A stretch of 64,000 nucleotides of DNA from Gammaproteobacteria bacterium (GTDB taxonomy: Bacteria > Pseudomonadota > Gammaproteobacteria > UBA6429 > Thiohalophilaceae), in assembly GCA_030148325.1 (NCBI GenBank), contig JASBTR010000205.1, forward strand, positions 1 through 64,000. Direction: 5' to 3'. Shown here one piece after another: positions 48,193 to 51,437 of this stretch. A program made the position numbers and the translations under genes. The notes beneath the pieces were generated by a model that worked only from the letters and a program-made list of their open reading frames with translations, was not told the origin of the DNA and did not search any database. Position 1 is the first letter of the stretch. Every line of letters begins with the position of its first letter.

Positions 48193-48858
48193 TTGTTCTC
48201 GAACAAGCTGGCCGGCATAGGCATGACCTCGCAGCGTACCCGGGATCGGCTGATCGCCCGTCTCCGTGATGAAGGCATCGAGGATGAGCGGGTGCTGGCT
48301 GTGATGCGCACTACGCCCCGGCATATTTTTGTCGATGAGGCGCTGGCCACTCGCGCCTACGAGGACACGGCCCTGCCCATCGGCTATGGCCAGACCATTT
48401 CCCAACCCTATATCGTTGCCCGTATGAGCGAAGTGCTGCTGGGCGGAGGTCCGTGTCACCGAGTGCTTGAGATATGCACCGGCTCCGGTTATCAGAGCGC
48501 GGTACTGGCGCAGCTGGTGGATCAGGTTTATACCGTCGAGCGTATCCCCGAGTTGCATGCCCGAGCGAAAAAATGCCTGGCTGAACTGCAGCTTCGTAAT
48601 CTGCGCTTCCAGCTCAGTGATGGCAGCTGGGGCTGGGAACCGTTTGGCCCCTACGACGGGATTATCGTCACCGCGGCGCCGGAACAGGTGCCGGAGGAGC
48701 TGTTGAAGCAGCTGGCTGATGGCGGACGCCTGGTGATTCCCTGTGGCCGCGCCGATGCCCAGCGTTTGCGCCTGATTACCCGTGCTGGTGACAGTTTCAG
48801 CGAAACTCTGCTGGACTGGGTTAGTTTTGTTCCCCTCATAAAAGGAGAGAGTAAGTGA
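48193..48858 (+). CDS. pcm: Protein-L-isoaspartate O-methyltransferase
   Basis: Pcm methylates isoaspartyl residues to start their repair. Visible blocks: [54 protein letters not shown], and SAM motif I as [16 protein letters not shown] near residue 95. A TTG at 48193, with GGAG upstream, gives 221 residues; ATG 48223 is the alternative and would remove ten. Overlaps the next gene by 4 nt. Confidence 0.95.
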
Positions 48859-49433
48859 AGGTGTTTTCCCGTCTGTTTGAAATGGTTATGCGTTGGGTCG
48901 AACACCGTCATGCCCCCTGGTATCTTGCCGGCCTGAGTTTTGCCGAGTCATCATTTTTTCCGGTGCCGCCGGATGTGATGCTGGCCCCCATGTCGCTGGC
49001 AAAAACGACGCGCGCCTGGCGTTATGCAATGATCACCACCCTGGCTTCGGTTACCGGCGGCATTGCCGGTTATGCGATCGGCATGTTTGCCTTTGATCTG
49101 GTTGAACCCCTGTTGCACAGCGCGGGTTACTGGGAGCGTTATGAAATGGCGCGGGCCTGGTTCGATACCTGGGGGATCTGGGTGGTGTTGCTGGCCGGGT
49201 TTTCCCCCATTCCCTATAAGGTTTTCACCATCACTTCGGGTGTGGTGGGCATGGCCTTTCTGCCCTTTGTGCTGGCTTCGATTGTTGGTCGTGGCGCTCG
49301 TTTCTTTCTGGTGGCGGGATTGATGGTCTGGGGAGGAGAGAAAATGGAACAGACGTTGCGTCGCTATATCGATCGTATTGGCTGGGTGCTGGTAGTGGTG
49401 GTGCTTGTAGCCTGGTTTACCCTGAAAAATTAA
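48855..49433 (+). CDS. YqaA-type inner membrane protein (SNARE-associated/DedA-like)
   Basis: The 192-residue protein has four or five membrane helices, with [17 protein letters not shown] near residue 35 and [19 protein letters not shown] near residue 115, the hallmarks of the VTT/DedA fold group. It commonly stands between pcm and nlpD in gammaproteobacteria. Exact function unknown; relatives affect lipid carrier flipping. Overlaps pcm by ATGA. Confidence 0.88.
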
Positions 49434-49456
49434 TGCGCCGAGAGATGCGAGTTCGC

Positions 49457-49624
49457 TTAACCCGCATTTCTCACCAGAGGGCGAGATGATCGCGCAGAGA
49501 ATTGGATCCACAAAGAATTTTCCGAAGGAGTGGAATAACAGTGCGTATTTCCGACTGAGGAAAATCCTTTGTGGATTCAAAGATCAAGCGAGGGTTCGTC
49601 ATTCTGGTGAGAAGTGCGGGTTAA
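49457..49624. mobile_element. 168-bp near-complete palindrome inserted at the 5' end of nlpD
   Basis: Terminal inverted repeats TTAACCCGCATTTCTCACC at 49457-49478 and its complement at 49603-49624 match at 21 of 22 positions. Inner arms 49504-49523 and 49559-49577 also pair, so almost the whole element folds back. It carries AGAGGG-N4-ATG at 49476-49488. It has the size and ends of a MITE; no parent IS is in the window. Confidence 0.8.
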
Positions 49625-50355
49625 TACTGTTTTTGCTGGCGACTCTGCTGCTTAACGCCTGCAGCAGCCGCTTTGTTAACTTTGGCGATGGTCGCTATTC
49701 AAAAAAGTACCAACAGGCTGTACATGTAGTGCGCAAGAGCGAGACCCTGTATTCCATCGCCTGGCAACATGGTTATGATTACCGCAAGCTTGCGGCCTGG
49801 AATAACATCCCGCGCCCCTACACGATTTATCCGGGGCAGAAGATAAAATTAGCGGGCAAACAGGAAAAAAAATCTGCACCTAAAATAAAAACTAAGGTAG
49901 TATCGAAACACAGGACTGTGACATTGGCCGCAAATAAAAAGCATGCAGTGTCACAGAAAAAAAATAATAATAAGAATACAAAAATAACATGGCGCTGGCC
50001 GACAGCTGGAAAGATCATCAGTCGATATTCAGACAGGGATCCCGGCAAGAAAGGGCTGGATATCGCCGGTCGGACTGGCCAGCCTGTATATGCCGCTGCA
50101 AGCGGTGAAGTCGTGTACAGTGGCAATGGTCTGCGCGGCTATGGAAACCTGATTATTATCAAGCACAATGAAACTTACTTTAGCGCCTATGCGCATAATC
50201 GCGATATATTCGTGAAAGAAAGCGAAAAGGTAAAGTTTGGCCAGAAAATTGCCGATATGGGTAATAGTGAAGCCAGCAGGCCGATGTTGCATTTTGAAAT
50301 CAGACGTAATGGAAAACCTTCTAACCCCTTGAAGTATTTACCCAAAAAACGTTAA
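49486..50355 (+). CDS. nlpD: Murein hydrolase activator NlpD, N terminus supplied by a repeat
   Basis: NlpD is the outer-membrane lipoprotein that activates amidase AmiC at the septum. The lipobox LLNAC has its Cys at residue 59, after the hydrophobic LILFLLATLLL; LysM (VVRKSETLYSIAWQHG) spans about 82-123 and a LytM domain about 175-285. LytM is degenerate as expected of an activator: GKKGLDIA lacks the zinc His and MLHFEIR lacks one of the HxH pair. Residues 1-46 are encoded by the palindrome at 49457-49624, and no later ATG, GTG or usable TTG exists before the signal sequence. Confidence 0.9.
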   Translation: MIAQRIGSTKNFPKEWNNSAYFRLRKILCGFKDQARVRHSGEKCGLILFLLATLLLNACSSRFVNFGDGRYSKKYQQAVHVVRKSETLYSIAWQHGYDYRKLAAWNNIPRPYTIYPGQKIKLAGKQEKKSAPKIKTKVVSKHRTVTLAANKKHAVSQKKNNNKNTKITWRWPTAGKIISRYSDRDPGKKGLDIAGRTGQPVYAAASGEVVYSGNGLRGYGNLIIIKHNETYFSAYAHNRDIFVKESEKVKFGQKIADMGNSEASRPMLHFEIRRNGKPSNPLKYLPKKR

Positions 50356-50375: not shown

Positions 50376-51437
50376 ATGGGCAATGACGACAAGCATCCTT
50401 TCAACAACAAAAACATGGAGCCAGCCAACGTGGAAGCCGTTTCTGAAGTAATGGAAGATAAAGACGATACTATTCTCCCGAAAGAGGACGAAGTGCTTGA
50501 TGCCGATTCCGATATTGAACTGGAAGTAGACACTGTCGATGGGGGTAATAAAGATGATAAAAAGGACAGGAAAGTAAAATATCAGGCAGGCAGTATCCCT
50601 GATGGACAACTGGATGCTACCCGCCTGTATCTGGGGGAAATTGGTTTTACCTCCCTGCTGACCGCCGATGAAGAAAAATATTATTCTCGCCTGGCGTTGA
50701 AGGGCGATGAATCGGGGCGCAGGAAAATGATCGAATGCAATCTGCGCCTGGTGGTGAAGATTGCGCGACGCTATCTCAACCGCGGACTGGCGCTGCTGGA
50801 CCTGATCGAAGAAGGCAACCTTGGACTGATTCGCGCAGTGGAAAAATTTGATCCGGAACGTGGCTTTCGTTTTTCAACCTACGCCACCTGGTGGATACGC
50901 CAGACTATCGAACGCGCGATTATGAACCAGACCCGCACCATTCGTCTGCCGATCCACGTGGTCAAGGAAATCAATATTTATCTGCGCGCAGCACGGCATC
51001 TTTCCCAGACCCTGGATCACGAACCCAGTGCCGAGGAAATAGCCGAGAAGCTGGACAAGCCGATTGAAGACGTCAAGCGCATGCTGGGGCTGAACGAGCG
51101 TATCGCCTCGGTAGATAGCCCCATGGGACATGATGCCGACAATTCCCTGCTTGATGCGATCCCGGATGAAAATAACGTCGATCCAGTGGTGTTGTTACAG
51201 GATGATGATGTCAAGGCTAATATTGAACAGTGGCTGGCACAGTTGAGTGACAAGCAGCGTGAAGTGGTGGAACGCCGCTTCGGCCTGCATGGTTATGACG
51301 TCTCGACCCTGGAAGAAGTCGGCAATACCATCGGTGTAACCCGCGAACGGGTGCGCCAGATCCAGCTCGAAGCACTGAAAAAACTGCGCGACATACTGGA
51401 GAAAGAAGGTTACTCCGTGGATGCCTTATTTAAATAA
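50376..51437 (+). CDS. rpoS: RNA polymerase sigma factor RpoS
   Basis: RpoS directs general stress and stationary-phase transcription. The 353-residue sigma-70 protein has an acidic N-terminal stretch (to about residue 70), region 1.2 ([20 protein letters not shown]), region 2 ([35 protein letters not shown]), and region 4.2 ([20 protein letters not shown]). The nlpD-rpoS order is standard, so a main rpoS promoter within nlpD is likely. A repeat array starts at the base after the stop codon. Confidence 0.97.

Follow-up and report, generated by a model that had tools for sequence, protein, structure and literature searches.

How does a cell make and export NlpD when a palindromic element lies between the lipoprotein signal of the protein and the start codon of its gene? 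The question is raised by a gammaproteobacterial draft genome, of which we analysed a stretch of 64,000 nucleotides (the window). The usual gene order around nlpD is surE-pcm-yqaA-nlpD-rpoS, and in the window pcm and yqaA lie upstream of nlpD and rpoS downstream. The yqaA-like gene (48855..49433, + strand) encodes a VTT-domain membrane protein and was recognized from the list of open reading frames (ORFs), its Pfam VTT_dom match and the gene order of congeners; rpoS (50376..51437, + strand) matched the NCBIfam RpoS equivalogs above cut-off. Between them, an element-initiated ORF of 289 amino acids (49486..50355, + strand; ORF list, Pfam and NCBIfam) carries Pfam LysM (4.9e-13) and Peptidase_M23 (1.1e-31) domains behind a lipobox, and its best NCBIfam matches were ActS/NlpD, below their cut-offs. 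With LysM and M23 domains following the lipobox, and in the expected gene order, this ORF is predicted to encode an NlpD/ActS amidase-activator lipoprotein.

The palindrome extends over 49457-49624, with outer arms of 22 nt at 95% complementarity and inner arms of 22 nt at 91%. Folded as RNA it reaches -91.5 kcal/mol (z = -11.3 against shuffles), a value that none of 200 shuffles equalled. It comprises a 160-bp element (49461..49620, + denoting the strand with the family-conserved RNA fold) that begins with the terminal inverted repeat CCCGCATTTCTCACC (49461..49475, + strand), ends with its counterpart CCCGCACTTCTCACC, which has one mismatch (49606..49620, - strand), and is flanked on the left (49457..49460) and right (49621..49624) by unstranded copies of TTAA. 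The original signal continues at 49621..49662 (+ strand) with its hydrophobic core and lipobox, LILFLLATLLLNAC, the Cys codon lying at 49660-49662. An earlier, sequence-only reading of this DNA had claimed that the element leaves the nlpD signal without a start of its own, that the sole in-frame ATG, together with an AGAGGG motif, lies within the element, and that 46 repeat-coded residues would precede a buried signal. These claims were borne out. In the lipobox frame the sole ATG, at 49486, belongs to the element; the SD-like AGAGGG (49476..49481, + strand) is paired in the hairpin, as judged from sequence, fold and opening cost; and 46 element-coded residues stand ahead of the signal in the 289-residue ORF, the last being the Leu of the right TTAA copy. 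Between the element and the lipobox there is no in-frame ATG or GTG, and the only standard start there is a TTG within the hydrophobic core. The very stable hairpin of the element now lies ~750 nt upstream of rpoS in the transcript, where it may lessen read-through into rpoS from the operon upstream.

The same reading had taken the 5' end of nlpD to be replaced, and here it did not hold: the native start remains 24 nt to the left of the element, and TTAA is duplicated. The original 5' end, cut off by the element, occupies 49433..49456 (+ strand), as located by empty-site reconstruction, orthologous starts and alignment, with the start and first 8 codons intact (ATG CGC CGA GAG ATG CGA GTT CGC, coding for MRREMRVR). 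Its ATG at 49433 overlaps the TAA stop of yqaA (49431-49433), and this TAATG overlap and the gene order are the same in all three congeners. Comparison with element-free relatives, as had been suggested, gave uninterrupted nlpD starts: the congeners G001, G002 and G003 read MHRRMQVRLIVFVLAALLLAACSS, MPRMFRVRLIVIVLATLLLAACGS and MPQEIRVRLIVLVLATLLVACSS at this place, without the element, and the orthologous start is also intact in one more distant relative (G020). Excising the 160 bp and one TTAA copy from the window restores a standard lipoprotein signal from ATG 49433, the flanks joined through a single TTAA (ATGCGCCGAGAGATGCGAGTTCGCTTAATACTG...) reading in frame as a textbook lipoprotein signal. 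Given TTAA on both sides, the intact native start and the element-free congeners, this is a clean insertion that split the 5' end rather than a replacement: the 160-bp element entered nlpD at a TTAA within codons 9-10, and these four bases were duplicated. The genome holds one close copy of the element, which excludes collapse of a repeat in the assembly. The insertion adds a net 164 bp, a length not divisible by three, and so breaks the native frame.

Searches for a parent insertion sequence (IS) and for other copies, both proposed earlier, yielded a parent IS type and further copies. A 1748-bp IS1380-family element (L099, 1370-3117), whose transposase matches PF13701 with E = 2.6e-158, is bounded by CCCGCATTTCTCACC/CCCGCATTTCTCACA and flanked by a CTAG duplication, and its left 15 bp are identical to those of the window element; only the ends are alike, and the window element's core does not derive from the L099 element. 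Exact YTAR duplications flank young copies in the genome G240 (CTAG, CTAG, CTAA, TTAA and TTAG), and an exact 4-bp duplication is kept in 11 of the 29 copies of an independent set. The flanks of some copies elsewhere do not match, which is to be expected of old insertions but leaves a YTAR duplication in every copy unproven. A TA duplication of the IS630 type, considered from a few copies, was set aside in favour of 4 bp on the exact YTAR duplications in G240 and at the IS. Because it has the same 15-bp end and a YTAR-type duplication as the IS1380 element, is short, lacks a transposase gene and occurs in dispersed copies, the window element classifies by sequence as a MITE of the IS1380 group. 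A search of this genome found no IS1380 transposase, and the L099 element is a candidate mobilizer of the MITE. We also considered the element's reading frame as a transposase N terminus and rejected it, since Pfam gave no match and the resemblance to the IS is confined to the ends.

Relatives of ~165 nt are spread over the class and reach into other parts of the phylum. Similarity search across 369 genomes of the class found them in 37, with at most 14 matches in one genome (G045), and a covariance model, built from 24 of 28 aligned copies, found matches in 40 of 398 genomes of the phylum, all labelled as outside the class except this genome itself. A sister subfamily in G240 (L092-L097) comprises ~85 end pairs of ~175 bp with the same ends and a different GC-rich core; seemingly unrelated in sequence, it fits the covariance model at 49-59 bits. 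Plasmid and phage collections contained no match to the element or the sister consensus. The orientations of copy and flanking gene (++ 17, -- 13, -+ 12, +- 8) show no clear bias, which argues against a simple co-transcription rule. When frame fusions were sought among the other copies, only L049 ran long (212 codons), and this looks like a spurious frame. The congener G003 carries a degenerate copy at another site (L012 / L196, C137), and three copies in G045 (L018, L019 and L024) have a common extra block of ~50 bp (GGCCGCTGCCGGCATCCTGCCTTACGCGGCACTTGTAC...) near the hairpin tip. Four IMG/VR contigs (L070, L075, L076 and L077) start ~105 nt inside a copy of the element's end, and L077 (4768 bp) has the element end at both contig ends; these contigs are likely chromosomal and broken at the repeat, and were possibly mistaken for complete viral genomes.

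What is conserved in this family points to RNA. We aligned 28 full-length copies from many genera over 51 consensus pairs and found 95.7% of cells paired, with compensatory change in 43 of the 51 pairs; none of 500 shuffles did as well, and a one-base shift of the partners lowered pairing to 43-44%. Internal-loop motifs, namely GAUGAUCGC, tandem G-A and CAAGCGAGGG, were kept. A DNA palindrome prefers neither strand. The + strand nevertheless gave the better RNA fold in 28 of 28 copies, by a mean of 19 kcal/mol, and wobble cells in the alignment were G-T in 145 cases against 12 A-C. Among independent copies that the model retrieved and that had no part in building it, the same strand folded better in 29 of 29, by a mean of 23 kcal/mol, with copy orientation set by the loop motifs and a small bias possibly added by the model's own scoring; one strand was thus the better RNA in all 57 copies of the two sets. 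Because the independent copies were aligned by fitting them to the model, their pair counts are biased towards it, whereas the fold comparison is independent of alignment. Gene conversion between the arms could produce covariation but not strand asymmetry, and the two together argue for selection on the RNA of one strand. Its role is likely to lie in transcript stability or processing, or in the element's own mobility. Searches of Rfam gave no gathering-score match for five copies (L015, L033, L053, L049 and L095) and, for the window region, only chance miRNA matches far below gathering. Selection on the open frame was considered and dropped, the three codon positions varying alike.

How NlpD might be translated across such a hairpin is suggested by the junction itself. 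Owing to the frame shift caused by the net insertion, the native start yields only an 18-codon leader (49433..49489, + strand, from translation), which ends at the TGA at 49487-49489. This stop overlaps the element's ATG at 49486 as ATGA, and by chance of frame the conserved ATGATCGCG core of the element begins a stop-free frame that leads back into the nlpD signal. In free mRNA, opening the SD and start would cost 17.9 kcal/mol at the element versus 3.5 at the native start. With the element's SD buried in the hairpin and the two codons overlapping, leader-coupled reinitiation is the likeliest route to NlpD. Ribosomes arriving through yqaA and the native nlpD start would unfold the hairpin as they translate, terminate at the TGA and restart at the ATG at 49486, a ribosome that ends the leader keeping the element's SD and start region unpaired. 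Translation would then give a prolipoprotein in which a basic stretch of 46 residues precedes a normal h-region and lipobox, and Lgt and LspA could still give unchanged mature NlpD, provided that the long n-region is acceptable to them and to Sec. Long n-regions are known; a positively charged extension of 46 residues is unusual and does not alone preclude processing by Sec, Lgt and LspA. From these features we infer both coupled reinitiation and export of NlpD. The earlier choice between the element serving as a start and NlpD going unexported was therefore right in bringing the element's ATG into play and too narrow in its alternatives, coupling to the native start being likelier given the buried SD.

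The main rival, and a serious one, is recent loss of function, in which NlpD is lost to the hairpin and the frameshift and the element's open frame is a matter of accident; we regard it as a distinct possibility that falls short of likely. It draws on the buried SD, on the absence of codon selection on the element's frame in the family (differences of 0.18, 0.24 and 0.20 at codon positions 1, 2 and 3), and on at least 4 other M23-domain ORFs in the genome that could compensate. It has to contend with an nlpD that shows no stop, frameshift or raised rate, with a frame open across 289 codons and with the ready translation route that the ATGA overlap provides. The dN/dS of nlpD is 0.13 to G003, against 0.09-0.16 for other pairs, with no stop or frameshift in 237 codons; this normal constraint fits continued use and recent insertion alike, and cannot separate use from recent loss. 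NlpD might alternatively initiate immediately ahead of the hydrophobic core, at a codon that is weak or non-standard, either the ATA at 49624 or the TTG in the signal. Such a start would give a short signal, and TTG is legal as a start, but there would be neither a basic n-region nor an SD, and the preceding region sits within a hairpin arm, all of which makes this very unlikely.

We likewise think it highly improbable that the element codes for protein and is retained for the peptide it contributes, as argued for Rickettsia palindromic elements: about 12 related copies keep the open frame MIAQ...RLKKIPCGFK.QARAR, but changes are not in excess at third positions, more distant relatives are interrupted by stops or have no ATG, and RNA pairing accounts for the conservation. 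An assembly or sequencing artefact is barely credible. The genome is a draft of 211 contigs with 5.45% contamination, yet it holds a single close copy of the element, with an exact 4-bp target site duplication and intact terminal repeats, between clean flanks that match the congeners on both sides. Weighing these readings, we consider it quite probable that nlpD was split by a MITE insertion, with likely coupled reinitiation at the element's ATG and RNA selection across the family.

Short mobile palindromes have been described in several bacteria. The Correia/NEMIS elements of Neisseria are palindromic mobile elements of ~100-160 bp, with long stem-loop transcripts and some ORF fusions (PMC2229807; PMC10969869), and effects on transcript stability and processing have been reported for Correia and ERIC elements (PMC10969869). 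Their ends are TA-bounded, whereas the window element has IS1380-type ends and a YTAR duplication. Closer in length is YPAL/RU-2 of Yersinia, an element of 168 bp with an open frame that in YPO1552 forms part of a signal peptide (PMC2229807); the window element resembles it in having nearly the same length, an open frame and a signal-peptide case. YPAL has no terminal inverted repeats and makes duplications of 3-26 bp (PMC2229807), and the 15-bp terminal repeats and 4-bp duplication of the window element set it apart. In Rickettsia, the RPE is a palindromic mobile element of ~150 bp, translated in the frame of the conserved gene that contains it (PMC10969869). RPEs stay in frame within proteins, whereas the window element, with a net insertion of 164 bp, ends the native frame at TGA 49487 and supplies a new N-terminal start; we therefore did not class it as an RPE. 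With IS1380-family elements and MITEs it shares the identical 15-bp terminal repeat, the 4-bp YTAR duplication and a short length without a transposase, and differs in a core that does not come from the L099 IS and in its conservation as a one-strand hairpin. Gene-fused mobile palindromes, even in signal peptides, are thus already known, and nlpD adds a new case, distinguished by its unusual stop-start junction. A literature search with the terminal and core sequences found no description of the family, which, with its IS1380-type ends and strand-specific RNA conservation, appears undescribed.

On balance we lean towards a phylum-wide family of mobile hairpins with IS1380-type ends, spread by DNA transposition and selected as the RNA of one strand, which in nlpD has come to form a stop-start relay. 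The nlpD allele offers a clean natural experiment on two points: whether a lipoprotein can tolerate 46 extra residues ahead of its signal, and whether termination-reinitiation can bridge a hairpin insertion. The usual view of bacterial MITEs is of DNA whose hairpins are incidental. With a one-strand hairpin conserved beyond one class by way of numerous compensatory changes, a functional RNA of a MITE becomes a testable question, and the covariance model of the family provides a means to find its copies.
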